Below are positions 472 through 43,909 of a stretch of DNA of 64,000 bases, in pieces. Each line of letters opens with the position of its first letter. Position 1 is the stretch's first letter. The DNA is taken from IMG/VR virus record IMGVR_UViG_3300031957_002411, positions 1 through 64,000 of that record. The stretch is one strand, 5' to 3'. A program made the position numbers and the translations under genes. Source of the stretch: a virus. The notes under the pieces are model-generated. The model was not told where the DNA came from and made no database searches. It saw only the letters and a list, made by a program, of their open reading frames with translations.

Positions 472-543
472 GGCTCTATAGTTCAATGGATAGAACATCG
501 GTCTTCTAAACCGACAATGTGGGTTCGACTCCCGCTGGAGCTA
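472..543 (+). tRNA. tRNA-Arg, anticodon TCT
   Basis: A complete cloverleaf can be drawn. Acceptor 472-478 pairs with 536-542 (two G-U pairs) with discriminator A543. D stem is 481-484/493-496. Anticodon stem 498-502/510-514 encloses anticodon TCT at 505-507. T stem 519-523/531-535 has the loop TTCGACT. CCA is not encoded. It reads AGA and AGG, which are very common arginine codons in this window, so it probably supports phage codon use in a host with fewer such tRNAs. Confidence 0.93.
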
Positions 544-585: not shown

Positions 586-960
586 ATGAAATACTATGTT
601 TTTTTAGCAGCATTTACTTTATATGTTTCAGCATACACATTGCTGGGATTTGGAAGAGAACCTTACAATATTGAGTTTCTTGTCAGTGAACAACCTGCTA
701 AGGCTAAATTAATTATTTTCTCTGCTGATTGGTGTTCTCCATGTCAAGCAGCAAAAAGGGCGATGAAAGAGAATGTAGACTTAAAAAGAGTCGTAGACAG
801 TTACGAAGTAACATACTATGACTTTGATACAGAAATGATAATGAAGAGAAAATATAAGATTCAAAAAATTCCTACATTTATTATACTGACAGATGACGAA
901 GAAATAAGAAGACAGGTTGGATTTAGTAGCTCGGATAAATTAAAAAAGTTTTTAGATTAG
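586..960 (+). CDS. Membrane-anchored thioredoxin-like protein
   Basis: The 124-residue protein has an N-terminal hydrophobic segment (about 3-20; signal or anchor) followed by a thioredoxin fold. The redox motif is C50-S-P-C53 in a WCSPCQ context, and the cis-proline loop KIPTF lies near residue 97. The usual role is thiol-disulfide exchange, here probably outside the cytoplasmic membrane. A strong GGAGG site precedes ATG 586. The next gene, a c-type cytochrome protein with CxxCH motifs, begins three bases after the stop. That suggests, without proving, that it keeps haem-binding or disulfide cysteines in the right state. Confidence 0.8.
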   Translation: MKYYVFLAAFTLYVSAYTLLGFGREPYNIEFLVSEQPAKAKLIIFSADWCSPCQAAKRAMKENVDLKRVVDSYEVTYYDFDTEMIMKRKYKIQKIPTFIILTDDEEIRRQVGFSSSDKLKKFLD

Positions 961-963
961 ATT

Positions 964-3282
964 ATGTTAAGATTAATTCTTACCATTATATTATCCTTAT
1001 CAGCATCTACAGCATTATCGCAACAAAATGGTATACAATTTTTTGAGAAGAATATTCGCCCTGTTTTAAACACGCAATGCTATTCATGTCATTCTTCTAC
1101 GTCTAAAGATGTCAAGGGAGGACTGTCCCTAGATACTAGACAAGGTATATTAAACGGTGGTGATTCTGGACCATCGGTTGTTCCCGGTAAGATAGATGAG
1201 AGTTTATTATTAGACTACATTGAGTCTGGTGATATGCCTCCAGATAATCCTCTGAGTGAGGAAGTTGTTGATAATTTTAGACAATGGATTAAAATGGGTA
1301 TGCCTGACCCAAGATACAAGCCTGAGAACAGAGCGGTAGAATTAAGACAGGCTAGAAATTTTTGGGCATTCAAAAAAGTAACAAGACCTCCTGTAGCTAA
1401 ATATGATGATGGCACAGAAATAGATGCCATATTAAATTTAGAAATAGAAAAACACAAATTAAAACCAGTAGAGGCAGCAGATGATTATACTATTATGCGT
1501 AGGCTTTATTTCGATCTTATTGGCTTACCGCCGAGCGTCGAACAAATAAAAGGTTATATAAATGATACATCAGAAGATAAGTATGAGAAGTTAGTTGATA
1601 GTTTATTGCAGGACGAAGGGTTTGGAGAAAAGTGGGGACGACATTGGCTTGATGTGGCACGGTTTGCAGAATCCTCTGGACAAGATAGAAATTTAGTTAG
1701 TCCATACGCTTGGAGATACAGAGATTATGTAATAGATAGTTTCAATCAAGATAAGCCATACGATCAATTCATTATAGAACAAATAGCTGGTGATCTACTA
1801 CCACACAAAAATTATAAAGAATACAATAATAATAGAATAGCTACGGGATTTCTGACAATAGGAACTAAGAACATACAGGCGCAGATTAGACAGTTTGAGG
1901 CAGATCGCAACGACGATCAGATAGACGCTATTACCAGAGGTTTTCTAGGCATGACATTGAGTTGTGCAAGATGCCATGATCATAAGTTTGACCCATTCTC
2001 TCAGCAAGATTATTATGGTGTAGCTGGAGTATTTAATAACACAAAAAACATGGACGGGTTGTATAGAGGTAATAATAACACTGGCTATCTTGGTGATTAT
2101 GATTTTCTTGTGAACGAAAAAACTGAAGAATTATACAAAAATAAAAAGATAGAAGAATGGTTTTTACTTTGTGATATTAAAAATGCTGAATACCAAATAG
2201 AATCTATTAAGACTTGGAACAAAAGAGCTACAGAAGATCAACTTAACAGAGAATTAGGTAGGAGACAGAAGATACTAAATGAAGCTAAATCAAAATTACC
2301 TGAAGAGTATTTAAAATACTTAGAGGATCTAGAACCTATAATGTCTGTTAAAGATAAAGATAAGATGAGTGAAGTAAAACTGGCAATCAGGGGCGAAGTA
2401 AATAATCTGGGCGATGAAGTACCAAGAAGATTACCAGAGATATTTAGTGATAGACCTAATCTTGACTTTGATAATACAAGTGGACGATACGAACTTGCGA
2501 AATGGGTAACACACAAGACTAATCCTTTGACATATAGAGTACATGTAAACAGAGTATGGATGCATTTGTTTGGCAAAGGTATACTAGACAGTTTTGATAA
2601 TTTTGGTATACTGGGTGGAGAACCTACCAACCTTAAACTGATGAACTATTTGTCAACAAAGTTTGTTACAGGTAGACTATCCAATAAAAGACTTATTAAA
2701 ACTATTGTCATGAGCAATGCTTATAGACGTAGTAGTAAGTTTGATAAACATAATTTTGAAATAGATCCTGACAATATTTACTTCTGGAGAATGAACGAGA
2801 AAAGATTAGAGGCTGAACAAATTAGGGATTCATTACTGTTTGTCTCAGGTAAACTAGACGGATCGCACAGCAACATAAGTGATTTTCAAACAGATATAAA
2901 AAATGCAGGCAAAGAACTAAGAAAGTATATAGGAGAAACAAAGTCTAGATCAATTTATATACCATCCTTGAGAGATAATAAGATTGAGATACTAGACATA
3001 TTCGACAGACCAGATAATAGTTTGCTTAGTGCTGAGAGAAGTGTTACGACAGTATCTACGCAGGCTTTATTCTTGATGAATAATCCTAAGATCATAGCAT
3101 TATCGCAAGAACAGGCGAAAGAGTTATCTGATGTTAATGAAATATTCTTAAAATTTTTAGGTCGTCCACCTGACGAAACTGAACTAGAAGCATCAATAGA
3201 TTTTATAGAAGCAGATAATAATAATCTCGCACACTTAATACAAATACTAATCTGCACAGGAGAATTTCGTAATGTTAAATAG
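964..3282 (+). CDS. Planctomycete-type cytochrome c / DUF1549 / DUF1553 protein
   Basis: This 772-residue protein has a Sec signal (about 1-20), then a planctomycete-type cytochrome c domain with haem motif C39-Y-S-C42-H43. A DUF1549 domain follows (roughly 148-345) with a second CxxCH at C334-C337-H338, and a DUF1553 domain (roughly 500-755). The architecture is common and multiplied in Planctomycetes and Verrucomicrobia genomes, where these genes pair with DUF1501 genes exactly as here. The biochemical role is not established; an extracytoplasmic electron-transfer or substrate-processing role is usually assumed. Its length is slightly short for the family. Base composition and codon use look like the surrounding phage genes, so any transfer was not very recent. 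I know of no common phage equivalent. Confidence 0.9.
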   Translation: MLRLILTIILSLSASTALSQQNGIQFFEKNIRPVLNTQCYSCHSSTSKDVKGGLSLDTRQGILNGGDSGPSVVPGKIDESLLLDYIESGDMPPDNPLSEEVVDNFRQWIKMGMPDPRYKPENRAVELRQARNFWAFKKVTRPPVAKYDDGTEIDAILNLEIEKHKLKPVEAADDYTIMRRLYFDLIGLPPSVEQIKGYINDTSEDKYEKLVDSLLQDEGFGEKWGRHWLDVARFAESSGQDRNLVSPYAWRYRDYVIDSFNQDKPYDQFIIEQIAGDLLPHKNYKEYNNNRIATGFLTIGTKNIQAQIRQFEADRNDDQIDAITRGFLGMTLSCARCHDHKFDPFSQQDYYGVAGVFNNTKNMDGLYRGNNNTGYLGDYDFLVNEKTEELYKNKKIEEWFLLCDIKNAEYQIESIKTWNKRATEDQLNRELGRRQKILNEAKSKLPEEYLKYLEDLEPIMSVKDKDKMSEVKLAIRGEVNNLGDEVPRRLPEIFSDRPNLDFDNTSGRYELAKWVTHKTNPLTYRVHVNRVWMHLFGKGILDSFDNFGILGGEPTNLKLMNYLSTKFVTGRLSNKRLIKTIVMSNAYRRSSKFDKHNFEIDPDNIYFWRMNEKRLEAEQIRDSLLFVSGKLDGSHSNISDFQTDIKNAGKELRKYIGETKSRSIYIPSLRDNKIEILDIFDRPDNSLLSAERSVTTVSTQALFLMNNPKIIALSQEQAKELSDVNEIFLKFLGRPPDETELEASIDFIEADNNNLAHLIQILICTGEFRNVK

Positions 3283-4570
3283 AAGAAATTTATTACAAGC
3301 CAGTAGTTTTGGTTTTGGTATGCTTGCTCTCAAAGGATTGATTGCAGAAGAGGCTATGCGAAATAATAAAAGAGTTATCTTTATGTATATGAATGGAGGC
3401 ATGACACATACAGATACTTTTGATTACAAACCTTTAATGGTAGAAAAAGATGGCACAGACGATCCTGTAAGTAAAGGTAGAAAGATTGTAAAGCCCGGAG
3501 TGCCATTGACTCCTGCTGGCAAAAGTGGTATAGAGATTAGCGAGAATTTCCCGCATCTAAGAAAACATGCAGATGATTTATGCTTACTCAACGGCATGAA
3601 AAGTAAAACAGGCAATCATAATCAAGCTAGAAGTTTATTGCACACAGGTAATTTTCAATTCAGCAGACCTAGCATGGGTAGCTGGCTATTATATGGATTA
3701 GGCACAGAGAATAAAGAATTGCCGGGGTTCATAACTATAGATGCTAATATCGGCCCTGATAACTATGGCAGTGCTTTTTTGCCAGCAGTATACCAAGGAA
3801 CTGCTATCAATGCTGGAAATGTTCAAAGTCCTATTCCTAATCTTAAAAGTCCAATAGCATTAGAAAAACAAAGAGAGAACCTAGATTTCCTCAGAGATTT
3901 AAATGGTCATCAATTAGGCAATGGTGAGAATAGCAGACTAGAAGGATTGATTGAGAGTTATGAATTGGCTTTTAGGATGCAGACAAGTGTTCCTAGTACT
4001 ATTAATATTACAAACGAACCACCAGCAGTATTAGAAAAATATGGAATAAATGATAAAGCTACAGCTAAATTTGGACGACAATGTTTATTAGCAAAGAAGT
4101 TTAGTGAAGCAGGAGTAAGGTTTGTAGAAATTGGACATGGTGGATGGGACATGCATCAGAATATTGTGGCAAATTTACAAAAACAAGCGTATAATATAGA
4201 TAAGCCAATTAGTGGTCTAATACAAGATTTGAAGGACTGCGGCCTTTTTGAAGACACAATTATATTGTTTGGCAGTGAATTTGGAAGAACTCCGGGTATA
4301 AAAGAAGGTGCAACTGGCAGAGATCATAACAATGGTGGATTTTCTATGTGGATGGCAGGCGGTGGGATTAAAGGTGGAATTAGACACGGTTCTACAGACG
4401 ATTTTGGACATAAAGCAATTCCAGAATATAGCATGGACATGCATGATTTACATGCTACAATTTTACATCTCATGGGCATAGACCACACTAAACTAACATA
4501 TAGATATAGTGGTAGAGATTTTAGGTTGACAGATGTGTTTGGTAATGTACAATATGATATTATAGCTTAG
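3272..4570 (+). CDS. DUF1501 family protein with Tat signal
   Basis: This 432-residue protein starts inside the previous gene (11-base overlap, GGAG-type site just upstream), so the two are translationally linked. The N-terminus has a twin-arginine signal (R4-R5-N-L-L followed by a hydrophobic stretch to about 25), predicting folded export. The rest matches DUF1501, a family in the alkaline phosphatase/sulfatase superfamily: MYMNGGMTHTDTFD near the start, GHGGWDMH near residue 290, a GSEFGRTP motif and a DHNNGGFSMW motif. Its activity is unproven. The stop codon's last base is also the first base of the tmRNA gene. Confidence 0.9.
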   Translation: MLNRRNLLQASSFGFGMLALKGLIAEEAMRNNKRVIFMYMNGGMTHTDTFDYKPLMVEKDGTDDPVSKGRKIVKPGVPLTPAGKSGIEISENFPHLRKHADDLCLLNGMKSKTGNHNQARSLLHTGNFQFSRPSMGSWLLYGLGTENKELPGFITIDANIGPDNYGSAFLPAVYQGTAINAGNVQSPIPNLKSPIALEKQRENLDFLRDLNGHQLGNGENSRLEGLIESYELAFRMQTSVPSTINITNEPPAVLEKYGINDKATAKFGRQCLLAKKFSEAGVRFVEIGHGGWDMHQNIVANLQKQAYNIDKPISGLIQDLKDCGLFEDTIILFGSEFGRTPGIKEGATGRDHNNGGFSMWMAGGGIKGGIRHGSTDDFGHKAIPEYSMDMHDLHATILHLMGIDHTKLTYRYSGRDFRLTDVFGNVQYDIIA

Positions 4571-4907
4571 GGGGCGTAAAGGTTTCGACAGGTAAAAAGA
4601 AATATAGATCGCATCGGGTAGTTGATCAAGAGGCTACCTTAAAACTTGATTACAATTTTAATTGCCGATACTTCTGTATTAGCACTCGCTGCTTAGTGAG
4701 CGGGGTTTCCTAAACCCTGTTGCCCAATTAGGATGACTCCGATAATCGGATAGGGAACGCAACCTGAACTAAATAAGAAATTGGCGTATTCGTCATGGCG
4801 CTGGAAAGACAGATAGTTTTGTTTGTAGTATTAATAACAACAAACTAACGATGTAGAAGTTTATGTGGAGTTTATACTGGACAGGGGTTCGATTCCCCTC
4901 GCCTCCA
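4570..4907 (+). ncRNA. ssrA: tmRNA (trans-translation RNA)
   Basis: The 5' end GGGGGCG followed by the conserved AAGGTTTCGACAGG pairs with CGCCTCC at 4900-4906 (discriminator A4907), and the T arm GGGGTTCGATTCCCC lies at 4884-4898. The tag frame reads GCC at 4664 to TAG at 4694-4696, giving ADTSVLALAA, with the stop codon in the loop of a 6-bp helix (4685-4690/4699-4704). The hydrophobic ALAA-type end fits proteolysis by ClpXP. The RNA frees stalled ribosomes with SmpB, which is not in this window and would come from the host. CCA is not encoded. The first G is shared with the stop codon of the upstream gene. Confidence 0.93.
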
Positions 4908-4924
4908 CTTAGGAAAGGACAACA

Positions 4925-5566
4925 ATGATCTTTAATTTACAATCTATCAATGCTCAATTGAATTTTGATATAACAGGTGTTATACACGTTGGTGCATTTG
5001 ATGGTGCAGAGTTAACAACATACAGGAAGTTAAATCTATTTAATACTATATTGTTTGAACCACAACGTGAAATGTATAATGTGGTTAGCCATAAGTGTAT
5101 TGACGATGAAGTTGTATATAATATAGCTCTTGGTTCAGAAGATATAGAAACAGAGATGTTTATATCTGATAAGGCTGGTGGTATGGCTAATGGTGCTACT
5201 CAGTCTAGTTCTATACTACAACCTAAAGTTCATCTGACAGAACATCCAGAGATTACATTTCCAAAGAAAGAAAATATCGTTGTAAAAAGATTTGACAATT
5301 TTGTACAATCTAATAACATTGATGTATCTGGTTATAACATGCTTAACGTAGACGTTCAAGGTTACGAACTAGAAGTGTTTAAAGGATTTGGTGACTACTT
5401 AAATCAGATTGATATTATTATTGCAGAGGTCAACAGAAACGAAGTTTACAAAGATTGTGCTATGATTGGCGATATTGACAATTACTTACTAAAGTATGGC
5501 TTAAAACAAGCCTCTGTTTACTGGCAATCTGCAAGCTGGGGAGATGCGATTTATGTCAGAAACTAA
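4925..5566 (+). CDS. FkbM-family SAM-dependent methyltransferase
   Basis: This 213-residue protein matches the FkbM class of O-methyltransferases. The nucleotide-binding opening GVIHVGAFDGAE lies near residues 18-30, an acidic ILFEP follows, and the LNVDVQGYELEVFKG motif (about 142-157) is diagnostic. Such enzymes usually methylate sugar hydroxyls on glycans or secondary metabolites. It starts glycan island 1, 17 bases after the tmRNA, with an AGGAAAGG site. The acceptor cannot be deduced. Confidence 0.85.
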   Translation: MIFNLQSINAQLNFDITGVIHVGAFDGAELTTYRKLNLFNTILFEPQREMYNVVSHKCIDDEVVYNIALGSEDIETEMFISDKAGGMANGATQSSSILQPKVHLTEHPEITFPKKENIVVKRFDNFVQSNNIDVSGYNMLNVDVQGYELEVFKGFGDYLNQIDIIIAEVNRNEVYKDCAMIGDIDNYLLKYGLKQASVYWQSASWGDAIYVRN

Positions 5567-6503
5567 ACATCTAGTAACTCTTAGCGATCATAATTACTTA
5601 GTATACGGCCTTAGTCTCTATGATTCTTTAGAAGAATACGATGACCAAAAAGACACATTTATCTTACATTATTTATGCACCAGCCAAGAAGCTTACGATA
5701 AACTGTCTTCTTTAAGTCTACCAAATATTGTTCCATATAATATAAAAGACTTAGAAAGCGATGAAGATTTTCTAAGATTAAAGAACAATCAACAGAGTAA
5801 TACAACTTCTGGGTATGATGGTAACAATCATTTTCACTGGGCATTGGCATCCTTCTTCTCGTATTATTTAATGGAGAATCATGATTTACCCCATATCGTT
5901 TACATTGATAGTGATATTATGTTTTACAATCCTGTGGACAGAGTGTTAGACGCAATGCAGGATAAGAGTATTGGAATTATTACTCATAAGCATATGGCTT
6001 TAGAAAAATCCAACAAAAATGTAGGATATTATAATGTAGGCGTTATAGTATTTAAAAATACAGAAGTTGGAAAGTCTTGTCTAAAATTTTGGAGAGACTG
6101 CTGTATTGATACAGATAATAAATATGCAGAAGATTTTGGTACGTGTGGTGATCAAAAGTATTTAGAGTTATTCGATGAATTGTTTGACGAAAAAGAAATT
6201 AAAGTTTTGTGTCATGATGTTGGCAACATAGCGCCTTGGAATTTGCATATGTGTAAATTGCTTGGTAATAATGAAATGATGTGGTATGATCACAAAGGTT
6301 TTGTGCTACAGCCTGAGCAGAGTAAACTGCAAGATATAGTTTTCATGCACTTCAGTCATTTTACTCCAGATTTCGAGAGCGGATCTTTTAGGCTTGACAG
6401 AGGTGGTGAATGGGGTCCAATAGCGTCATACGAAAATGTTGTAGATTTGTATAGAGAGTATTATATAACTTGTTCACATACAAAAAGGAAATATAACTTA
6501 TGA
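5553..6503 (+). CDS. GT8-like glycosyltransferase
   Basis: The protein (316 residues from ATG 5553) has the GT-A layout of family 8-like transferases: an N-terminal strand VTLSDHNYL, the metal-binding DxD in YIDSDIMFYNP (about residue 125) and a C-terminal region with HFSHFTP. I prefer ATG 5553 over 5544 because the GGGGAG site at 5538-5543 is nine bases upstream of 5553 but touches 5544. It overlaps the methyltransferase before it by 14 bases. The likely role is adding a sugar from a nucleotide sugar; donor and acceptor are unknown. Confidence 0.75.
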   Translation: MSETKHLVTLSDHNYLVYGLSLYDSLEEYDDQKDTFILHYLCTSQEAYDKLSSLSLPNIVPYNIKDLESDEDFLRLKNNQQSNTTSGYDGNNHFHWALASFFSYYLMENHDLPHIVYIDSDIMFYNPVDRVLDAMQDKSIGIITHKHMALEKSNKNVGYYNVGVIVFKNTEVGKSCLKFWRDCCIDTDNKYAEDFGTCGDQKYLELFDELFDEKEIKVLCHDVGNIAPWNLHMCKLLGNNEMMWYDHKGFVLQPEQSKLQDIVFMHFSHFTPDFESGSFRLDRGGEWGPIASYENVVDLYREYYITCSHTKRKYNL

Positions 6504-7225
6504 CTAATGGAACGTATGTAGATTCTTGGAAAAGTTCAAAAAAAGCTTTTTATGATCAACTTAAATTAAATATGAGGGAAATGAAAGATAATCCCCCAGT
6601 TCATTGGCAAAATTTTATTGATTACATTAACGAGTGTAAGCCACAAAGAATAGTTGATGTTGGATGTGGAGCTGGCATATATTCTAAACTTTGTCATTAT
6701 ACTAAACCTAACTATGGACAAGACCATGACACTAAGATTGAATATATTGGATATGATTATGCTGAAGCAGCAGTAGAAGTTGCAAATGAAGCTTGGACTG
6801 AAGGAGTTATAGAAGATCCCAGAAGTAGAATAGTGTTGAATAATCATGTTAAAACAAATTGTAGTTTTCATGTTAAAGGCTATGAAGATATTACAAAAGA
6901 GGATATCAGAGATGGAGATTTATTAGTAGCTAATGGTTTAATTACTGTAATGGAAAATGGAATTGAATGTTTAGAACATCTGCTTTCTTTACAATGCAAA
7001 AATGTTCTTATACAGAGACAGGTAGTTACAGAAAAAGAAACATATGTAACAACTTATAACGCTTACGGTTTTACCACATATCTTTACCACATGAACAAAA
7101 AAGAACTTAAATCTATAGTAAGAAAATATAATTACGATATAGAACTGATACGTCTTGGCGCAAGAACAGTAGATGATGAAAACTTCGATGCTCACTACGA
7201 TATGCTTCTAAAATTACAGGATTAA
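6500..7225 (+). CDS. Class I SAM-dependent methyltransferase
   Basis: The 241-residue protein carries the SAM-binding motif I IVDVGCGAGIYSKL (about residues 51-64), and an acidic residue after the second strand (IGYDYAEAAVEVA) fits a Rossmann-fold methyltransferase. The ATG overlaps the preceding stop by four bases. Its place among glycosyltransferases suggests a sugar or glycan substrate, but the substrate region has no family marker. It is distinct from the two FkbM enzymes. Confidence 0.8.
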   Translation: MTNGTYVDSWKSSKKAFYDQLKLNMREMKDNPPVHWQNFIDYINECKPQRIVDVGCGAGIYSKLCHYTKPNYGQDHDTKIEYIGYDYAEAAVEVANEAWTEGVIEDPRSRIVLNNHVKTNCSFHVKGYEDITKEDIRDGDLLVANGLITVMENGIECLEHLLSLQCKNVLIQRQVVTEKETYVTTYNAYGFTTYLYHMNKKELKSIVRKYNYDIELIRLGARTVDDENFDAHYDMLLKLQD

Positions 7226-7229
7226 GGTT

Positions 7230-8111
7230 ATGAAAATTACATTTGGTATGATAGTATTTAATGGAAATTATGTGCTAAAAGAAGCCATAGAATCTATTTA
7301 TCCATACGCTCATCAAATTTTAGTAGCAGAAGGCCCAGTTCAATATTGGCAAGACGAGGGCTATCAAACTTCAAATGATGGCACGAACGATGTTTTATCT
7401 CAGCTTTACGACCCAGATCATAAAATAACTATAGTACACAGTCAATATAAAGAGAAGGATGATCAGTGCAATATGTACATGAGTCTTATGAAGCCAGATA
7501 CAGACTATGTATGGAATTTAGATTGCGATGAAGTATTCAAACCTAAAGATACAGAAAAAGTTTTAGAGTTACTTGAAAAAGAAAAGTACACATCTGTTGG
7601 ATTTAAGAGTCAAACTTTTTACGGAGGCTTTGAAAGATATCTTACAGGGTTTGAAGAAAATGCAGAATTTATTAGAATTAGAAAAGTATATCCCGGTTCT
7701 TATTGGTCTACACACAGACCGCCAACAGTGGCGCATGTAGTAAAAGCAGAGGACAGACTACCTGAAAAGCACTTAAACTACAACGTTTTGGCTGATGAAC
7801 ACGATGTAAGAATGTACCATTACTCTTATGTGTTCCCACATCAAGTGTTTAACAAGATAAAATATTATAAAGAGTTTTTAAATAGTGCGAATACTATAGA
7901 TAATTATTTTTCACATGTATATCTGCCTTGGGTTATAGGTAGTGATCATATGAAAAACATGATAGAAGACAAATATCATGGAGTTCACGAATGGATACCG
8001 CAAGCTAGAGGGGAATGCAGAACAGCAAAGTTTACAGGTGAGCATCCAGAAGTTATAAATATAGAAGAATTGAACCACAAACTTGAGAAACAATTGAGTA
8101 AATATATATGA
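7230..8111 (+). CDS. Family 2-like glycosyltransferase
   Basis: This 293-residue protein begins with a GT-A strand (KITFGMIVFNGNYVLKEA) and has the metal-binding acidic motif WNLDCDEVF near residue 91. The remainder (YKEFLNSA, HEWIP) resembles phage and bacterial GT2-like transferases. It follows the methyltransferase by four bases. The donor is unknown; the C-terminal half has several His and Tyr residues but no recognisable extra domain. Confidence 0.78.
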   Translation: MKITFGMIVFNGNYVLKEAIESIYPYAHQILVAEGPVQYWQDEGYQTSNDGTNDVLSQLYDPDHKITIVHSQYKEKDDQCNMYMSLMKPDTDYVWNLDCDEVFKPKDTEKVLELLEKEKYTSVGFKSQTFYGGFERYLTGFEENAEFIRIRKVYPGSYWSTHRPPTVAHVVKAEDRLPEKHLNYNVLADEHDVRMYHYSYVFPHQVFNKIKYYKEFLNSANTIDNYFSHVYLPWVIGSDHMKNMIEDKYHGVHEWIPQARGECRTAKFTGEHPEVINIEELNHKLEKQLSKYI

Positions 8112-8716
8112 AACCTTCAGTAATTTGTTGTGGATCTTTTCCATACAAGAATATTGATATAAATTACATAGTTGATTCTTTTGATACTATAATTAGACAC
8201 AACATGCTAGTGCCAAATTGTGGGTATGGGCTTAGAGATTCAACCATCCATGTGCTAAATAATCATTTATCTAAATATTGGAAGCAAAAAATTTCTATTG
8301 ACAGGTGGTGTAAAATATATGAAAACCTCTATAATATAAGTAGAGAGCATATTGAAAAATTTCACGATTATGTAAATAGAGACAATATAAATTTAATTAA
8401 CTATCCTACTAATAATACAGAATTAATGCAGGAAATATGCAAAAATAACAATGTAGAATATAATGTAACTGCTAAAATTCTTAGGTGTGGTTTAAGTTCT
8501 GTAGCTGCTTGTATATCAGATGGTTTAAAACCTTTCATGATTGGATACTCGATAGACGAAGAAAGCACGTTAGAGCATGTTTACAAGCATGATCGTACAA
8601 TTAACAAGAAATGGCATAATGCGTTGGAAGAAATCACCTTGATAAAATCTCTACATAAAGCTGGCTTAGTAGACGCTACGCTTTGCTGCTTAGAAGACAA
8701 AGATCATTTATCATGA
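8108..8716 (+). CDS. Sialyltransferase-like (GT29-like) protein
   Basis: The 202-residue protein has two blocks resembling sialylmotifs of family GT29. Near residues 6-46 a Cys-Gly-Ser start leads to DSFDTIIRHN and then GYGLRDST, like motif L. Near 126-150 RCGLSSVAACISDG leads to FMIGYS, like motif S. A later H..LEEITLIKSLHKAG block fits the family's C-terminal part. If right, it transfers a CMP-activated sugar. The similarity is by eye and partial, so another GT fold remains possible. A CMP-sugar synthetase-like gene at 56173 gives supporting context. Confidence 0.5.
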   Translation: MKPSVICCGSFPYKNIDINYIVDSFDTIIRHNMLVPNCGYGLRDSTIHVLNNHLSKYWKQKISIDRWCKIYENLYNISREHIEKFHDYVNRDNINLINYPTNNTELMQEICKNNNVEYNVTAKILRCGLSSVAACISDGLKPFMIGYSIDEESTLEHVYKHDRTINKKWHNALEEITLIKSLHKAGLVDATLCCLEDKDHLS

Positions 8717-9633
8717 TAAACTTATTCAATGTCAATCATTACAAGATAGATACTGCACAGTTTTCAAATTTATTGCATGACAAATGTGTAACAGAGTTTG
8801 AAAATGATTTTGCAGATTATGTAGGTGCAAAGTATGCATGTACAGCAAATAGTGCGTCAAGCCTTATCTTTTTAAGTCTTCTCAGATATGCACCAACTGT
8901 AGTAAAGATACCTACCATAATGCCCATAGTGGTTCCTAATGTAATAACTAACACTAGGCACAAAATTATATTCTATGATGATCCTGATTGGGTGGGTCAT
9001 TGCTATCATTTACATGATAACATATACGATTCAGCCCAAGAAGTATCTAGAGATATTTACAAAAAAATAAATGATGACAACGCCATAATGATATTTAGCT
9101 TCTATCCAACAAAGCCAGTTGGCAGTTGCGATGGTGGAATGGTAGTCTGCAATGACTATGACACAATACAATATTTTAAAACAATGACTATGAATGGCAC
9201 AACGCAAAATAGTGATAGCTGGAAAAGAAGTCAGACAGTTGCTGGATATAAGATGCATATTAATTCTTTACAAGCTGCAATGGCTCATTCAAACCTTAAA
9301 AAGTTAGATACAAAAAATAAAATATTAGAAGAGATAAAGGGGATATACAATAAAACATTTGGTATACAAAATACTAGCAATCATCTATATAGAATTAAGG
9401 TTGCTAATAACGCTTTATTCTTGAAGAAGATGGCAGAATGTGGTATACAGTGTGGTATACATTATGAAACTTGTCACAATAAAACATTTTTCAATTGCAA
9501 CCAACAGTCTTTACCTATATCAGAATCAGCATCCATGCACTATGCAAGTATACCATTTCATGAAGGACTATCTGTAAACGACATCAAAAAAGTGATAACA
9601 TACACTCATAAATTTTCAAAGGATAACAGATGA
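8713..9633 (+). CDS. DegT/DnrJ/EryC1-type aminotransferase
   Basis: This 306-residue PLP enzyme resembles sugar aminotransferases. It has YVGAKYACTANSASSLIFLSLL near the N-terminus (cofactor and dimer region) and FSFYPTKPVGSCDGGMVV, where the lysine is the probable Schiff-base residue (about 127). A closing block ASIPFHEGLS.NDI is typical of the family. The ATG at 8713 makes a four-base ATGA overlap with the previous stop, so it is preferred over an upstream TTG. It is short for the family (usually about 370), mainly in the C-terminal domain. It probably forms an amino sugar on a nucleotide carrier. Confidence 0.78.
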   Translation: MINLFNVNHYKIDTAQFSNLLHDKCVTEFENDFADYVGAKYACTANSASSLIFLSLLRYAPTVVKIPTIMPIVVPNVITNTRHKIIFYDDPDWVGHCYHLHDNIYDSAQEVSRDIYKKINDDNAIMIFSFYPTKPVGSCDGGMVVCNDYDTIQYFKTMTMNGTTQNSDSWKRSQTVAGYKMHINSLQAAMAHSNLKKLDTKNKILEEIKGIYNKTFGIQNTSNHLYRIKVANNALFLKKMAECGIQCGIHYETCHNKTFFNCNQQSLPISESASMHYASIPFHEGLSVNDIKKVITYTHKFSKDNR

Positions 9634-10553
9634 ATAGGATTATAGTTACTGGTGGAAAAGGTTTTTTAGGTAAAGTAGTAACCACCAATCTACATTCTAT
9701 GGGTATGGTACATGCTCTTGATAGTTCAATGTATGATCTTAGATCTTACGAAGAAACAGAGCAGATGTACATAGATTTTAATCCTAATATTGTTGTACAT
9801 TTAGCCGCTACGGTTGGAGGTATTGGGGCTAACAAAGAAAATCCGGGTAAATTTATTGAAGAAAACCTAGTAATGGGATATAATACTATCAAGTTAGCAA
9901 AAGAATATGGTGTTGAAAAATTTGTAATGCTAGGAACAGTGTGTTCATATCCCAAACATTGCCCAGTACCATTTAAAGAAGAGGATTTATGGAATGGCTA
10001 TCCAGAAGAAACAAATGCTCCATACGGAATAGCTAAGAAAACTCTTATGCAGATGATACAATCTTACAATCAACAGTATGGATTTAATGCAATTAATCTC
10101 ATACCCGTGAATATGTATGGGCCTAATGATAATTTTGATCCTAAATCTAGCCACGTTATACCTGCACTGATTTTAAAATTCCAACAAGCAATTGATAATG
10201 GTCATGAACCTGTTGAGATCTGGGGGACAGGTAGGGCTAGTAGAGAATTTCTATACGTTGATGATTGTGCAGAAGCTATAAAACTTGCAATCAAAAAATA
10301 TAATAGACCTGAACCAACAAATATTGGAACAGGTAAAGAAATTACAATTATGGAATTAGCACAGAAAATATCAATAATTATGGGACATAAAGGAAGCATA
10401 CACTATAATCCTAAATATCCAGATGGTCAACCAAGAAGATGCTTAGATACATCTAAGGCTAAAGAACGTTTTGGCTTTGAAGCAACAACTGATTTCGACA
10501 CAGGACTAACTAAAACAATAGAATGGTTTAGAAATGATTACAGTAATACTTAA
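9630..10553 (+). CDS. fcl: GDP-L-fucose synthase (SDR epimerase/reductase)
   Basis: The 307-residue protein starts with the NAD(P)-binding IVTGGKGFLGK (about 4-14) and has the family signature SYPKHCPVPFKEEDLWNG, the catalytic YGIAKK, and INLIPVNMYGPNDNF. These match GDP-4-keto-6-deoxymannose epimerase/reductase, which makes GDP-L-fucose. The length is normal for the family. ATGA overlap links it to the aminotransferase. The enzyme that makes its substrate, GDP-mannose 4,6-dehydratase, is not in this window and may be from the host or elsewhere in the phage. Confidence 0.9.
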   Translation: MNRIIVTGGKGFLGKVVTTNLHSMGMVHALDSSMYDLRSYEETEQMYIDFNPNIVVHLAATVGGIGANKENPGKFIEENLVMGYNTIKLAKEYGVEKFVMLGTVCSYPKHCPVPFKEEDLWNGYPEETNAPYGIAKKTLMQMIQSYNQQYGFNAINLIPVNMYGPNDNFDPKSSHVIPALILKFQQAIDNGHEPVEIWGTGRASREFLYVDDCAEAIKLAIKKYNRPEPTNIGTGKEITIMELAQKISIIMGHKGSIHYNPKYPDGQPRRCLDTSKAKERFGFEATTDFDTGLTKTIEWFRNDYSNT

Positions 10554-11280
10554 TGGGTACAGAAGACCTCATGTTCTAGAAGAACAGTATAACGCTATCA
10601 AAAATCAAACTTTAAATGAGATTGATGGTATAATGCTGTGGTGTAATTTTGATGAAGAGTCTATGTCTAAGTATCCAGCCCACGTAGTACAAAATTGTAC
10701 AGCTGCTTTTTGCAATCAAAATTTAGGCGTATGGGCTAGATTTTCTTACGCACTGAATAGTTTTTCAAAGTATATTTGCATGATTGACGATGATACTATA
10801 CCGGGATCAAAATGGCTACAAAACTGTGTTGATACCATGCAAACACACAGGGGAGTATTAGGATGCAGAGGTGTTCGCATGACCGGCGATGATTATTTAA
10901 ATTACCCCGGATGCCAATATGAAAGTTTTGGAGCAAGTAATCCTAATGAACAAGTTGAAGCAGTAGATATAATGGGTCACTGCTGGTTTTTTGAAAGAGA
11001 ATGGCTAAGGGCATACTGGGCTGAATCGCCATCTTCTAGATTAACAAGTGGTGGAGAAGATATGCACATGTCTTATGTGGTGCAAAAACATTTGGGTTTA
11101 TATACTTACGTTCCACCACATCCAAAAGATGATAAAGAAATGTGGGGTTCTCTTGATCCAAATACTCATGGTGAGGATATGGTAGCTACTTCTAGGACGG
11201 GAGAAGGCCACATGCAAGCACACGCATATTGGAACTATATTATAAAAAATGGTTATACTCTGGTTAAGGATAGAAAATGA
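10534..11280 (+). CDS. Family 2-like glycosyltransferase
   Basis: This 248-residue protein opens with a GT-A strand (MITVILNGYRRPHVLEEQ) and carries the acidic metal site MIDDDTIPG (about residues 87-95), followed by a membrane-independent catalytic region with GEDMHMSYV. The DDD plus later ED pattern is usual for inverting GT2 enzymes. It begins 20 bases inside the fcl gene, implying coupled translation. The acceptor is unknown; it could use GDP-fucose, but nothing in the sequence proves the donor. Confidence 0.75.
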   Translation: MITVILNGYRRPHVLEEQYNAIKNQTLNEIDGIMLWCNFDEESMSKYPAHVVQNCTAAFCNQNLGVWARFSYALNSFSKYICMIDDDTIPGSKWLQNCVDTMQTHRGVLGCRGVRMTGDDYLNYPGCQYESFGASNPNEQVEAVDIMGHCWFFEREWLRAYWAESPSSRLTSGGEDMHMSYVVQKHLGLYTYVPPHPKDDKEMWGSLDPNTHGEDMVATSRTGEGHMQAHAYWNYIIKNGYTLVKDRK

Positions 11281-12311
11281 TATTAGTAGCATTTGGAACA
11301 AGACCAGAATGGATTAAAATCAAACCTGTTTTAGAACAGTTCAGGCGTGGTCAAATTCCATACAAAATTATATCAACTGGTCAACACTGTGACATAATTG
11401 ATAAATCTGTAAAACATCACAATATAGAATATTTAAGTATACCTGAACAACATAATAGGCTGGATGATATTGTAAAGGCTGTAATAGATAATGGCGATAC
11501 AATTTACGAAGGTGTAAACCATGTCATGGTTCAAGGCGATACTACATCTGCATTTGCAGTTGCTTTAGGCGCATTTCATAGAAGAATTAAAGTGATACAT
11601 CTTGAAGCAGGACTTAGATCTTGGGATATGTATAATCCATATCCAGAAGAATTCAACAGAGTTACAATTAGCAGTATGGCAGATATACATCTTTGTCCGA
11701 CTGAGACTAATGCTGAAGTTATAAGAAAAAATCACAGCGGCAAGGTGTTTGTGGTAGGTAATACAGTACTAGACAATCTTACTCACTTGAAGCCATCTCT
11801 TGGAGATACTGTATTAATAACCATGCATAGGCGTGAAAATTTATCTATTATTGACAAATGGTTTGAAGCTATTGAAAAGGTAGCAGAAGATAATCCAAAT
11901 TTAAAGTTTATATTTCCTATGCATCCAAACCCAGACATAAGAAAACATAAAAAAATGTTAAAACATGTTGAAGTTGTGAAGCCTTTATCGTATAATGACT
12001 GTATAGAGATATTATCTAAATGCGCAATAGTTATTACAGACAGCGGTGGATTGCAGGAAGAGTCATCATTCTTTAAAAAGAAATGTATTGTATGTAGAAA
12101 AACAACAGAACGAACAGAAGGTGATGGATCGTTTGCTCGTATGTGTCATTCACCAGACAAGTTAAAAAAAATATTTAAAGACGCAAAGATAGAAATGGTA
12201 GATCAACCGTGTCCATATGGTGACGGTAACGCAAGTGTAAAGATTCTAAAAATAATTAAAAAGGAAACGTATAAAGATGCAGCCATCTATAAAACAAGAA
12301 AATCTAGGTAA
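11277..12311 (+). CDS. wecB: UDP-N-acetylglucosamine 2-epimerase (non-hydrolysing)
   Basis: The 344-residue protein shows the family signature along its whole length: FGTRPEWIK at the start, VQGDTTSAFAVALGAF (about 85-100), HLEAGLRSWDMYNPYPEEFNR, VVGNTVLDNL, and ITDSGGLQEESSF near the UDP site. It interconverts UDP-GlcNAc and UDP-ManNAc in the cytoplasm. The GTRPE.IK start and SGG..EE loop are intact, so activity is likely. ATGA overlap joins it to the glycosyltransferase before it. It could feed ManNAc-type sugars to a nonulosonate pathway with genes near 45-57 kb. Confidence 0.93.
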   Translation: MILVAFGTRPEWIKIKPVLEQFRRGQIPYKIISTGQHCDIIDKSVKHHNIEYLSIPEQHNRLDDIVKAVIDNGDTIYEGVNHVMVQGDTTSAFAVALGAFHRRIKVIHLEAGLRSWDMYNPYPEEFNRVTISSMADIHLCPTETNAEVIRKNHSGKVFVVGNTVLDNLTHLKPSLGDTVLITMHRRENLSIIDKWFEAIEKVAEDNPNLKFIFPMHPNPDIRKHKKMLKHVEVVKPLSYNDCIEILSKCAIVITDSGGLQEESSFFKKKCIVCRKTTERTEGDGSFARMCHSPDKLKKIFKDAKIEMVDQPCPYGDGNASVKILKIIKKETYKDAAIYKTRKSR

Positions 12312-12909
12312 TTACATAGTACCTGAAGAAGTAAAAGAAGGTGTTTGTTTAGAAATAGGAGCAAATGTAGGATCTTTTACAGATAAATACAAAGATTTCT
12401 TTGGCTTATTACACTATTACGAACCAATTACAGATTGCTTTAATGTTATAAAACAAAAACTTGAAGCATCGAACAATCCTCTAAGAAATGTAATAGGTTT
12501 TAACAAAGCATGTTATGATAAATCTGGAGAAGAACTAGAAATATTGTTGCATATAAATAATGACAGTGGCTCATCTGCTGTAAAAACAGATTTAACAAAA
12601 GACCATGAAGAGTGGAAAGATGGTAACGTCATTCAAAAAGTTTCAACTATTTCATTAGAAGACGCAATAGAAGAAATTGGTGGAAGCGTAGACTATTGCA
12701 AATGCGACTGTGAAACAAGCGAGTATTATATATTCATGAGCAAGGATCTTAGTGCCATAAATTACATAGGCATGGAAGTACACTGGCAAATGGGAGAAGA
12801 ACGACAACATGAATTACTAAAACATATTTCTAAAACTCACAAGTTTGTTATGGGCCATGCAGGTTACACTTATGGTATTAATAGAGAAATACTGCTAAAG
12901 AGGAAATAA
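12277..12909 (+). CDS. FkbM-family methyltransferase
   Basis: This 210-residue protein has the SAM-binding start CLEIGANVGSFTDKY (about 23-37), an acidic YYEP strand, and the FkbM-type block VDYCKCDCETSEYYIF (about 137-152). It belongs to the same broad class as the gene at 4925 but is only distantly similar by eye. Its start lies 35 bases inside the epimerase gene. The sugar hydroxyl it methylates is unknown. Two FkbM enzymes in one island suggest a glycan with more than one O-methyl group. Confidence 0.78.
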   Translation: MQPSIKQENLGNYIVPEEVKEGVCLEIGANVGSFTDKYKDFFGLLHYYEPITDCFNVIKQKLEASNNPLRNVIGFNKACYDKSGEELEILLHINNDSGSSAVKTDLTKDHEEWKDGNVIQKVSTISLEDAIEEIGGSVDYCKCDCETSEYYIFMSKDLSAINYIGMEVHWQMGEERQHELLKHISKTHKFVMGHAGYTYGINREILLKRK

Positions 12910-12910
12910 A

Positions 12911-13657
12911 ATGAAACTATCAACAGTTCCAAAAAAAGATATTAAGCATGATATAAAAGTGTTTGAAGAAAAGCTAAAGAACAAAGAAAACTTTACTTTT
13001 TCTAAATACGCTGATGGTGAATGGTCTGTAATTACAAATCAATCTCTCAATAATAAAGAGTTTTGGTTTGATGCCAACAATGTCATGGATGGCTACAAAA
13101 GAACAAAACTTCTAGAGTCTTTCCAATATCATCATCCAAATTATTACGTTGGGGTTTCTTGCCCATGTTGCCAAGGTTTAGAAATTCATAAGAAAATGAT
13201 ACAGGAATGCAAACAAGATGAAGACCATATAACTTGGGCTAATCTTTGGGTAAATAATAACTATAATTATTTTACATCTAATATCTTACCGTTGTTCAAA
13301 GATCGTGATGTGGTTCTATATTCAAACAAAGAAGGGAAGTTTGAAAATCTACCTTTTAAGCCTATACAAATTTTTCCAGTTGAGAAGAATGCTTGGGCTT
13401 CTAATTGGAATTTTATAGAAGAAAGTAAACACTTTGTAAAAAATAATGACATAGAAAATGCTTTGTTTTTATTTTGTTGTGGGCCGTTTGGAAATATTTT
13501 AGCACATGAGCTAACAAGTTGTTGTCCACAGAATACATATTTAGACATTGGATCTACCTTAAATCCATATTTACAATCTGAAGGTTTTGTAAGAGATTAT
13601 TATGTTCAGGGTTCTTTCTTTTCTCAAATGGAGTGTATTTGGAATAATGAAGAATAA
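12911..13657 (+). CDS. GT-D fold (DUF1792-like) glycosyltransferase
   Basis: The 248-residue protein has FTFSKYADGEW (D35-G36-E37), the hallmark DGE of GT-D transferases of the DUF1792 type, and a C-terminal FCCGPFGNILAHEL followed by YLDIGSTLNPY, which also matches that group. DUF1792 enzymes add glucose to serine-linked glycans in Gram-positive adhesins; here the substrate is unknown. It starts one base after the previous stop with an AGAGGAAA site. The many Trp, Tyr and Cys residues are normal for the fold. I am fairly confident of the fold and less so of the activity. Confidence 0.65.
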   Translation: MKLSTVPKKDIKHDIKVFEEKLKNKENFTFSKYADGEWSVITNQSLNNKEFWFDANNVMDGYKRTKLLESFQYHHPNYYVGVSCPCCQGLEIHKKMIQECKQDEDHITWANLWVNNNYNYFTSNILPLFKDRDVVLYSNKEGKFENLPFKPIQIFPVEKNAWASNWNFIEESKHFVKNNDIENALFLFCCGPFGNILAHELTSCCPQNTYLDIGSTLNPYLQSEGFVRDYYVQGSFFSQMECIWNNEE

Positions 13658-14561
13658 AAAGGTTACAAACTGTTATTACAACAGATCTTGTAGTGGGGTG
13701 GGAGATTTTTTACGTGGTTGTTGTCATCTTTTTGATATTTTAAATAACAACCTATCAATCTCTTTTAGCGCTCACGATCTAGGAAACTATATTTCTACGA
13801 AGTGTAAAAAGAAAATAGTTGACGATGAAATATTTGACACAGAAAGTTACAACAAAGATAACTGTGATAAGTATAATTACTTTGATAATATGAAAACAAA
13901 TTTAGAAAATGCACTAAACAACAACGAGGAAGATATGAAATTGTTCTCTAATTATTCTGATCACATTGTAGATTTAGAGGGTTACTTTTTATCACAAGAC
14001 TGTAAATCTTTCATGAAAGATAATATCATCTTTAGTGATGACATAGAGAGAGAGTTTTCTGAGCTGGGTATTGAAGATTATAATGTAATTCATTTTAGAC
14101 TAGGTGATAGGGAGTGTTGTGAAAGTGTCACGAATGAAGAACTAGATAGATACAATATCAATACTGCCATGTTCGACATAGACTACGGCAATTTATTTAG
14201 AGAGGTTTATTCATATTACCTACGTAGTAATCCAATTATAGGAGAAGAAAAAACCTTGGTAGTGCTTTCAGACTCTAATAAATTCAAAGATTTTCTAGAG
14301 GTCTTTTTAGGAGATAAACCTTGGGATATTCGCGTTATACACAAAAAAAGTCTACATTCTTCAGACAATCCGGGTTTTGTTAAGAGTTTAAACGTTGACA
14401 GGGAAGAAAAAATTGATAAAATGAGGTATGTAGCGTTAGATATGAAGGTCATTTCTAAGGCAAGTGAGATAAAATCATACAGTGTTTATCCTTGGGGATC
14501 TGGTTTTGCCTTCTGGTTAGCTAGGATATTTGATATTCCAATCTCTAATAATAGTGTATAA
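13647..14561 (+). CDS. Fucosyltransferase-like (GT11/GT23 superfamily) protein
   Basis: From ATG 13647 the protein has 304 residues. An N-terminal SCSGVGDFLRGCCHLF block resembles the start of GT11-like transferases. IHFRLGD (H149, R151, G153, D154) matches the HxRxGD donor-binding motif of alpha-1,2/1,6-fucosyltransferases, and LVVLSDSNKFKDFL fits the following S-D strand. I chose 13647 because the upstream ATG at 13602 lies deep in the previous gene. GDP-fucose synthase upstream gives supporting context. Identification is by motif only; the exact family is uncertain. Confidence 0.58.
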   Translation: MKNKKVTNCYYNRSCSGVGDFLRGCCHLFDILNNNLSISFSAHDLGNYISTKCKKKIVDDEIFDTESYNKDNCDKYNYFDNMKTNLENALNNNEEDMKLFSNYSDHIVDLEGYFLSQDCKSFMKDNIIFSDDIEREFSELGIEDYNVIHFRLGDRECCESVTNEELDRYNINTAMFDIDYGNLFREVYSYYLRSNPIIGEEKTLVVLSDSNKFKDFLEVFLGDKPWDIRVIHKKSLHSSDNPGFVKSLNVDREEKIDKMRYVALDMKVISKASEIKSYSVYPWGSGFAFWLARIFDIPISNNSV

Positions 14562-25025: not shown

Positions 25026-25946
25026 ATGTTTAATACACCGCGAGATATCTTGAAAGCTTACAAGGATGGTCTTGTAGGCTCATGGTGCGATCCAGAAGAT
25101 ACTGATAAACTTTTGGGAGAGTTGCCACACCCACTATTTGGTGTAGCTGCTTCTGATTTGTATAGTAGTGGCAAAGGGAAAGTTGCTTTACTCTATAAAT
25201 CTGCACAAAAATATGATCCCACCTTTGGTCCTCATGAGCGACAAACCACAGGTGACTGTGTTTCACACTCTACACGCACAGCGGTAGATGTAACTCGCTG
25301 CCACGAAATTGTTGGGGGAGACAGAGAAGATTTTGTTGCTAGAGGAGCTACAGAAGCTATTTATGGTTCTCGCGGTCATGGTGGTCAAGGAATGTCATGC
25401 TCTGTCGCTGCTAGATTTGTACATCAAAATGGTGGCATTCTAGTAAGAAAAGATTATGGATTTGTTGATTTATCTAAATATAATAGTAGAATAGGTACAA
25501 ACTGGGGAAGAAGTGGTGTACCTAAACAAGTAAAAGAAGAAGGCAAGAAACATCAAGTAAAAACTATTAGTCTTGTAAAATCTGTAGACGAAGCAAGAGA
25601 TGCTATTGCTAACGGGTATGCTTTAAGTGTCTGTAGTAATTATGGATTTTCCTCACGCCGTAGTGAACATGGTATAGCAAAAAAAAGCGGGTCTTGGAAT
25701 CACGCAATGGCATGGGTGGCGATGGACGACTCTCATGAGATATATAAGGAAACATTATTCTTAATTCAAAATAGCTGGGGAGCATTTAATAGTGGTCCCA
25801 AAAGATTTGATCAACCAGACGGATCATTTTGGATTAGAGAAAGAGATGCTGCTGGTATGCTCAATCAAAATGGAGCTTGGGCATTTAGTGACGTAGATGG
25901 CTTTCCACCACGAAAAGTAGATTGGACTATCGACGAGGTATTTTAA
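25026..25946 (+). CDS. Papain-like cysteine protease domain protein
   Basis: This 306-residue protein has a papain-type triad in order: Q73 with C78 in RQTTGDCVSHS, H226 in GSWNHAMAW and N249 in FLIQNSWGAF. The NSWG pattern is typical of C1 peptidases. No signal or pro-region is clear. In phages, such enzymes may process virion proteins or act on cell-wall peptides; the position between a holin-like gene and fibre genes allows either. The GC content is moderate and similar to neighbours. The stop overlaps the next start. Confidence 0.8.
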   Translation: MFNTPRDILKAYKDGLVGSWCDPEDTDKLLGELPHPLFGVAASDLYSSGKGKVALLYKSAQKYDPTFGPHERQTTGDCVSHSTRTAVDVTRCHEIVGGDREDFVARGATEAIYGSRGHGGQGMSCSVAARFVHQNGGILVRKDYGFVDLSKYNSRIGTNWGRSGVPKQVKEEGKKHQVKTISLVKSVDEARDAIANGYALSVCSNYGFSSRRSEHGIAKKSGSWNHAMAWVAMDDSHEIYKETLFLIQNSWGAFNSGPKRFDQPDGSFWIRERDAAGMLNQNGAWAFSDVDGFPPRKVDWTIDEVF

Positions 25947-27130
25947 TGGCTGCTATTTATCAGAGACTACAATTTAGAAGAGGGCAAGCAGGTCATTTTG
26001 CCATACACAATCCGATACTAGCTAGTGGTGAACCAGCGTTCACTATGGATACGCAAGTAATGAAGGTTGGAAATGGCTCTGACAGATGGAATGATTTGCC
26101 AGTGTTTTCTTCTGGTGTAAGCGATGCTGCTGGAGCTACATTTGCACAACTAGCGACTGTTTCTGGTATGCTAGATATAGCTTCTGGTATCGCAGTGTAT
26201 TCATCAGGCCAACAAAGTCTTGATGTAAGTAAAATTAATGCTGTTTCAGGCATTGCAAGTACTGCTTCCGGTATTTCTATATTTGCATCTGGACAAACTA
26301 TTTTATTAACAGCTTCTAGTGGAGCATTGAACACAAGCGTAGGACTACTCGAAGTATCTTCTGGTAATTTAAATACCAGCTCTGGCTTGCTCAATACAAG
26401 CGTTGGAGTGCTAGAAACTAACTCTGGCTTGCTCAATACAAGCGTAGGACTACTCGAAGTATCTTCTGGTAATTTAAATACCAGCGTTGGAGTGCTAGAA
26501 ACTAACTCTGGCTTGCTCAATACAAGCGTTGGAGTGCTAGAAACTAACTCTGGCTTGATCAATACAAGCGTTGGATTGCTTGAAGTTGCTTCTGGCGCAC
26601 TTAACACTAACCTTGGAACTGCTGAATCTGACATTATCATAGTTTCTGGTATTGCAGAAGCTGGAGGTGGCGGTGGTGCTACTGCTTCTCAACTAACTGG
26701 AGTTTCTGGAATAGCTGATACAGCTTCTGGTATTTCTGTTTTTGCTTCTGGGCAAACAATATTGCTTGCAGCAGCATCTGGCGCACTTAACACTAGCCTT
26801 GGAGTTGCTGAATCTGACATTGTTATTGTCTCAGGTATTGCAGAAGCTGGAGGTGGCGGTGGTGCTACTGCTTCTCAATTAACAGGAGTGTCTGGTATTG
26901 CTGATACTGCTTCAGGGATATCAGTGTTTGCTTCTGGTCAGACTATTTTAAATACTTCAAATAACACAATAGTATCAGGAATATCAGTACATTCTGTTAG
27001 TGGTAGTGTAACCTACAACTCAACAGCTAGTGGCAATATTAGTGGCATAAATACCATGCTTTTAGTAGATCAAGCTGCTTACAATTCACTTAACAAAGAT
27101 TCAAACACACTTTACTTTATACCGGAGTAA
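25946..27130 (+). CDS. Tail fibre with Mtd-like N-terminal domain and heptad repeats
   Basis: From ATG 25946 (GAGG upstream) the protein has 394 residues. The first 50 or so (IYQRLQFRRGQAGHFA, ASGEPAFTMDT, VMKVGNGSDRWNDLP) match the N-terminal domain of Bordetella phage major tropism determinant, a virion-attachment domain. Residues 126-223 are 14 seven-residue repeats of the form G-L-L-x-T-S-V, a likely trimeric stalk, followed by two 62-residue repeats. No catalytic motif is seen. It is a probable host-recognition fibre, expressed with the smaller fibre that follows. Confidence 0.85.
   Translation: MAAIYQRLQFRRGQAGHFAIHNPILASGEPAFTMDTQVMKVGNGSDRWNDLPVFSSGVSDAAGATFAQLATVSGMLDIASGIAVYSSGQQSLDVSKINAVSGIASTASGISIFASGQTILLTASSGALNTSVGLLEVSSGNLNTSSGLLNTSVGVLETNSGLLNTSVGLLEVSSGNLNTSVGVLETNSGLLNTSVGVLETNSGLINTSVGLLEVASGALNTNLGTAESDIIIVSGIAEAGGGGGATASQLTGVSGIADTASGISVFASGQTILLAAASGALNTSLGVAESDIVIVSGIAEAGGGGGATASQLTGVSGIADTASGISVFASGQTILNTSNNTIVSGISVHSVSGSVTYNSTASGNISGINTMLLVDQAAYNSLNKDSNTLYFIPE
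26321..26614 (+). repeat. 14 tandem 21-bp units encoding heptads
   Basis: Fourteen consecutive 21-base units encode heptads of the form G-[LVNA]-[LI]-[NE]-[TV]-[SN]-[SVL] (residues 126-223 of the fibre). A larger near-identical block recurs with a 105-base offset (26336 and 26441, five units apart), showing recent internal duplication. Such stalks can change length by slippage or recombination. Confidence 0.9.
26591..26962 (+). repeat. Two 186-bp direct repeats in fibre gene
   Basis: Copies at 26591-26776 and 26777-26962 encode a 62-residue module with SGALNT, VSGIAEA, five Gly, TASQLTGVSGIADTASG and FASGQT. They are about 85-90 percent alike by eye, mostly silent differences. Degenerate forms of the SGIA.TASGI..FASGQ part also occur near 26240-26310, so the fibre grew by repeated duplication. 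Confidence 0.85.
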
Positions 27131-43899: not shown

Positions 43900-43909
43900 G
43901 GAGTAAAAA

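Follow-up and report, generated by a model that had tools for sequence, protein, structure and literature searches.

Whether a pair of exported genes of the type found in Planctomycetota and Verrucomicrobiota (PVC) belongs to the phage genome in which it occurs, where it came from, and what it might do there are the questions raised by this locus. The window analyzed here is a stretch of 64,000 nucleotides corresponding to bases 1-64000 of a 135,790 bp IMG/VR virus record. The setting is a genuine tailed phage: genes encoding a tape measure protein, a baseplate wedge protein, and a large terminase are present in the same record outside the window, and the replication genes encode a ribonucleotide reductase, a DnaB-like helicase, a primase, a UvsX-like recombinase, and a split DNA polymerase. 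The polymerase gene (window 57158-61283) is in two pieces, which correspond to positions 244-614 and 627-1055 of phrog_405, with small ORFs between them. Among the matches listed in the isolate-phage collection, the best one to the terminase shows 27% identity. The window also encodes, at 25922-27130, a protein with an Mtd_N (major tropism determinant N-terminal) domain, a possible receptor-binding protein or diversity-generating target. An earlier note, made from the letters of the sequence, had described a thioredoxin-like (Trx) gene, a cytochrome c/DUF1549/DUF1553 gene (PSCyt), and a Tat-exported DUF1501 gene lying between a tRNA-Arg and a tmRNA, all of which were recovered at their positions:

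472..543, + strand: tRNA-Arg, anticodon tct, a neighbour that is not conserved with the cassette
586..960, + strand: thioredoxin-like protein, 124 aa (PF00085, E=1e-11)
964..3282, + strand: PSCyt1-PSCyt2(DUF1549)-PSD1(DUF1553) protein, 772 aa (Pfam)
1078..1092, + strand: first heme c motif, CYSCH, PSCyt residues 39-43
1963..1977, + strand: second heme c motif, CARCH, PSCyt residues 334-338
3272..4570, + strand: DUF1501 protein, 432 aa (Pfam, E=1e-128)
3272..3337, + strand: predicted Tat signal region of DUF1501, MLNRRNLLQASSFGFGMLALKG
4570..4908, + strand: tmRNA, tag ADTSVLALAA (Rfam RF00023, E=7e-45)
4925..12909, + strand: adjoining surface-glycan block (Pfam), with FkbM methyltransferases (4925 and 12277), GT8 (5544), a methyltransferase (6500), GT2 (7230 and 10534), a DegT aminotransferase (8683), an NAD epimerase (9630), and a UDP-GlcNAc 2-epimerase (11277)

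The Trx and PSCyt genes are separated by 3 bp and the PSCyt and DUF1501 genes overlap by 11 bp, which suggests that the three may be read as a single transcript. The tmRNA starts at the final base of the DUF1501 gene, a place occupied in most of the close relatives by a ferredoxin gene. The surface-glycan block is regarded here as the neighbourhood of the pair, and not as part of one operon with it. Further along the window (43054-44536), EF-hand-like and DUF5824-type genes were observed, the relatives of which flank the cassette in contig L001; those of the DUF5824 part follow it in L002-L005, and DUF5824-type genes are also found close to DUF1501 in many other phages.

The PSCyt protein of the window shows, in this order and above the Pfam cut-offs, the PSCyt1 (9e-14), PSCyt2/DUF1549 (3e-79), and PSD1/DUF1553 (8e-71) domains. 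Its N-terminus carries a Sec-type signal (MLRLILTIILSLSASTALSQQ), and N-terminal signal-like segments are present in the PSCyt proteins read in relatives. The two CxxCH motifs, from which heme attachment is predicted, are highly conserved among 60 aligned PSCyt proteins: Cys, Cys, and His of the second motif occur in all of them, and the three residues of the first in 55-56, the remainder being gaps. The dN/dS ratios with respect to its kin (0.065-0.10) are those of a gene under purifying selection. The PSCyt1 region resembles the cytochrome FoxE in sequence comparison, and the predicted structure is confident (pLDDT 89.5); searches with this model in the PDB and in the viral models of BFVD gave no significant fold match. 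One phage PSCyt protein matched phycobilisome-linker and DUF4214 models just under the cut-offs.

The DUF1501 protein matches PF07394 over its full length (430 bits vs. a cut-off of 27), and its dN/dS ratios (0.04-0.13) likewise reflect purifying selection; within the window's clade, dN/dS lies at 0.04-0.12. In an alignment of 60 DUF1501 proteins, about half of which come from phages, the twin arginine from which Tat transport is predicted is present in all 60, as are H116, D293, H295, D310, F337, R339, R350, and H352, while E336 is present in 59. The export proposed in the earlier note thus agrees with the Sec- and Tat-type signals found. The structure model of DUF1501 is poor (pLDDT 53, pTM 0.60), probably because of the shallow alignment. 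With this low-confidence model, all 44 Foldseek matches at E<=0.001 belong to the alkaline phosphatase superfamily, the significant ones being envelope-polymer enzymes and glycan sulfatases (LtaS, YejM, carrageenan sulfatases), and a short stretch of sequence is also shared with this superfamily. DUF1501 differs from the members of the superfamily such as LtaS, YejM, and the S1 sulfatases in several respects, however: E336-F337 aligns with their D-H metal pair, an invariant His appears to sit in the nucleophile region, by an equivalence that we infer, and the C/S-x-P-x-R sulfatase signature is absent from the window protein and occurs anywhere in the sequence in only 6 of the 60 aligned proteins. 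Since this signature is missing and E-F replaces D-H, DUF1501 may be non-hydrolytic. The invariant residues D293, H295, and H352 may form the remaining metal site.

The PSCyt-DUF1501 pair is not restricted to this record. Scans of IMG/VR with the two window proteins yielded close relatives, the longest of their contigs measuring 195 kb, and the order PSCyt then DUF1501 was found at 18 or more distinct loci (defined at 95% nucleotide identity), often in the middle of the contig. A terminase 54-64% identical to that of the window's phage was present in 7 of the 36 contigs tested, six of which hold close relatives of the pair and one of which (L114) shows DUF1501 paralogs alone in the part that was read. 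The 160-kb record G001, the contig of L001, has two terminase-like genes near its two ends (12155-14128 and 153765-155747), both with 54-55% identity to that of the window's phage. A later profile scan gave further pairs, mostly in the DUF1501-PSCyt order: this order occurs in phage contigs L276, L277, L279-L281, and L283, and L284 shows a PSCyt-DUF1501-DUF1501 arrangement. The fact that reversed and duplicated orders also occur in phages indicates that the link between the two genes survives reshuffling. Near pairs of this kind, tail-fibre genes were observed in L276 and L283, and a head protease gene in L281.

The pair is an unusual cargo for a phage, as the earlier note had supposed: neither family is present in PHROGs, and no match to the PSCyt or DUF1501 protein of the window was found in INPHARED, where the 50,697 phage records gave a single match to DUF1501, weak and partial, which lies in a fecal fragment and was obtained via a distant phage DUF1501 paralog. 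The literature searched, which covered few subscription papers or preprints, contains no report of the pair in phages, and on DUF1501 or DUF1549 in phages it contains one weak CDD remark about a 61-aa protein of a Pseudomonas phage.

The third gene varies, and so do the flanks of the cassette between relatives. The Trx-like protein of the window has the active site WCSPC and a hydrophobic N-terminus (N-terminal hydropathy 1.73), and is probably exported or membrane-anchored; PDB thioredoxins match it at 1e-8. It has one weak relative among the viral contigs, and no Trx gene lies beside PSCyt in the near kin; of the three-gene module initially proposed, the PSCyt-DUF1501 pair stands, and the idea that the thioredoxin is a constant component was rejected. 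The lineage of L011, L075, and L076 has a thioredoxin-like gene of a different kind downstream of DUF1501. A 4Fe-4S ferredoxin gene comes directly after DUF1501 in 14 contigs of the window's clade, its start codon mostly overlapping the DUF1501 stop codon, and all 14 viral contigs in which this ferredoxin was found are cassette contigs. It is missing at that place in the window, L017, L001, L002, and L009, and none was found elsewhere in the record of the window's phage. L006 has a sulfotransferase gene inserted between the PSCyt and DUF1501 genes, and L002 a sub-threshold one beside the cassette.

The framing by tRNA and tmRNA was not borne out either: in the related contigs, an adjacent tmRNA is shared only by the window's twin L017, a contig from another metagenome in which the DUF1501-tmRNA-FkbM arrangement is repeated at 100% identity. 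Another DUF1501-bearing viral contig has a tmRNA (L036:5453-5898, tag GETQLALAA) beside a tRNA-Ile. As a host marker the tmRNA is uninformative, since the matches to it in planctomycete genomes are confined to the conserved 3' end.

As regards the origin of the pair, the Pfam domains and the nearest cellular relatives are both of the PVC type, as anticipated. Among cellular DUF1501 proteins, the closest come from planctomycetes or Verrucomicrobiota (44-53% identity), and the identity of PSCyt to its bacterial relatives is mostly 36-41%. The phage copies form a clade of their own, with 61-91% identity among themselves and at most 53% to bacteria. The searches and trees proposed in the earlier note did recover viral kin, and placed the window's phage clade inside the Planctomycetota/Verrucomicrobiota set in the case of DUF1501 and among PVC sequences in that of PSCyt (fork 86, the inner order being poorly resolved). 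This position in the gene trees supports the view that the pair is host-derived and of PVC origin.

A PVC host is probable, as had been suggested, and the ferredoxin of the relatives narrows it down to Planctomycetota. Full-length orthologs of this ferredoxin (57-65%) were detected in 4 of the 30 PVC genomes chosen, of which no fewer than three are named as planctomycetes, and in 3 of 294 drawn Planctomycetota, one of which is shared with the chosen set; no full-length ortholog was found in 195 Verrucomicrobiota, where the best match was 46% over 59 residues. Since full-length orthologs were found only in Planctomycetota, the host is probably a planctomycete, this assignment being drawn from the relatives' ferredoxin and not from a spacer match. 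In the bacterial contexts read, no PSCyt-DUF1501 pair adjoins the ferredoxin gene, and the phages therefore probably combined ferredoxin and pair from separate bacterial loci.

The DUF1501 family is more widely distributed in phages than the pair. One DUF1501 profile matched 377 IMG/VR stretches (a redundant set), of which the best 80 were read. Many phage contigs carry 2-4 DUF1501 paralogs in a row, with Pfam E values of 1e-68 to 1e-128. Stretches with 2-4 paralogs and no PSCyt in the part read include L088-L090, L100-L109, L112, L121, L125, and L129; small exported proteins occur beside some of these arrays, such as the Cys-rich L109:842-1339 and L109:3837-4217. In the tree these other phage paralogs form separate deep clades, the bacterial sampling being limited to near relatives. 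Neither this family, nor the reversed gene order, nor the ferredoxin could have been noticed earlier, because other genomes were needed to see them.

Pairs of PSCyt2/PSD1 and DUF1501 genes are known in Planctomycetota and Verrucomicrobiota, with the same domains, order, adjacency, and heme and Tat motifs; those of the phages differ in that they lie in phage genomes, overlap, and have a ferredoxin or thioredoxin gene adjoining. In R. baltica, the PSD1 and PSCyt2 domains occur 41 times each (PMC2754498). The PVC DUF1501 genomic module of Kamneva et al. (2012), as described in PMC4452313 and PMC4960237, also combines DUF1501 with exported neighbours, whereas the phage-borne form consists of two genes; a link between this module and the intracellular membranes of PVC bacteria has been reported (PMC4452313). 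DUF1501-DUF1800 pairs accompanying bacterial chitin synthases (PMC5122149) likewise consist of a Tat-motif DUF1501 and a partner gene, but the partner in the phages is PSCyt2/PSD1 and not DUF1800, and no chitin synthase was seen near the pair. Like the known auxiliary metabolic genes (AMGs) of phages (photosynthesis, phoA/pstS, and glycan genes), the pair is host-derived, under selection, and carried by lytic-type phage genomes, so that it agrees with the definition of an AMG as a gene taken from the host and maintained by selection in a genuine phage; unlike them, it is a pair with Tat and heme motifs that is absent from the isolate-phage collection searched. The pair is therefore known in bacteria, with no assigned function, and its occurrence in phages is that of a host-derived module of unusual type and breadth.

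The fact that the pair is kept under strong selection in many distinct relatives suggests that it may be useful to the phages. The proposal we favor, to which we give about even weight, is that it is a periplasmic module acting on the planctomycete envelope or surface carbohydrate during infection. PSCyt would be exported by Sec, would acquire two c-type hemes via the host cytochrome maturation system, and would serve as an electron-carrying scaffold; DUF1501, with an alkaline phosphatase/sulfatase-superfamily fold and a divergent site of conserved His, Asp, and Glu residues, would be exported folded by Tat and act as the partner enzyme, possibly in a complex with PSCyt. Together they might remodel a receptor or surface polymer, aid release, or block superinfection, and the local thioredoxin or, in most close relatives, the ferredoxin would be an accessory redox gene. 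This proposal is based on the fold relatives, on the glycan, sulfotransferase, and tail-fibre neighbours, and on the bacterial context, where PSCyt genes adjoin those for sulfatases and in some cases code for carbohydrate-binding modules (PMC5615132). Several points count against it: no activity is assigned to any DUF1501 or PSCyt2/PSD1 protein in the literature found; it is hard to see what a cytoplasmic ferredoxin would contribute to a glycan reaction in the periplasm; DUF1501 paralogs occur in many phages with no PSCyt nearby; and the argument from glycan neighbours is weak, because such genes are common in these phages and the immediate surroundings of the pair vary from one relative to another.

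The chief rival is metabolic support of the host, the pair being a strict auxiliary metabolic module that boosts the breakdown of (sulfated) oligosaccharides, or the flow of electrons in the periplasm, and thereby feeds phage production. The c-type heme motifs and the ferredoxin or thioredoxin companions are consistent with this idea, as are the bacterial PSCyt genes beside sulfatase genes, for which mono- or oligomers are the inferred targets (PMC5615132), and the polysaccharide AMGs proposed in phages of Lentisphaerae (PMC11361711). We nevertheless regard it as rather unlikely: no transporter, glycoside hydrolase, or central-metabolism gene lies next to the pair in the annotated flanks, and 2-4 DUF1501 paralogs per phage are hard to reconcile with one metabolic bottleneck. 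Superinfection exclusion or counter-defence proper, in which the exported pair would block other phages or disarm an envelope-sited defence in a non-metabolic manner, overlaps with the envelope proposal, which includes receptor remodelling; export motifs, purifying selection, and repeated capture would suit it, but no match to the known anti-phage defence models of PADLOC was obtained, and it is improbable as a separate explanation. It is still harder to believe that the pair is carried in the particle or tail tip and acts like a depolymerase on the cell surface at adsorption, as the tail-fibre and head protease genes near some pairs might suggest, since the Tat signals and the signal-like segments of PSCyt would direct the proteins out of the cytoplasm, where virions form, and the pair lies outside any structural block in the window's clade. 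Lastly, a bacterial chimera, misclassified contig, or assembly join, as feared at the outset because the cassette begins 0.6 kb from the contig end and the nearest non-viral homologs are bacterial, can be practically dismissed for the pair in view of its 18 distinct loci, its mid-contig position in independent contigs from phages with terminases, the separate phage clade, and a low GC content continuous with that of the phage, the tRNA-Trx-PSCyt junction being the one part seen only in the window's record.

Few phages of the planctomycete phylum are in culture, and genes that bring no advantage in infection tend to be lost from phages. The PSCyt-DUF1501 pair provides a marker for phages of Planctomycetota; as a family carried by phages, it would rely on the host for Tat transport and cytochrome c maturation. 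Its recurrence, its pairing through rearrangement, and the presence of 2-4 paralogs in separate lineages mean that the phages offer compact, selected versions of DUF1501 and PSCyt for testing. A broader and more doubtful possibility, which we put forward tentatively, is that Tat-exported DUF1501, with or without its PSCyt partner, constitutes an apparatus, widespread but so far overlooked, by which PVC-infecting phages take over the envelope; if this were true, the phage copies would point to envelope or surface-polymer machinery as the physiological role of the large DUF1501 and PSCyt families.
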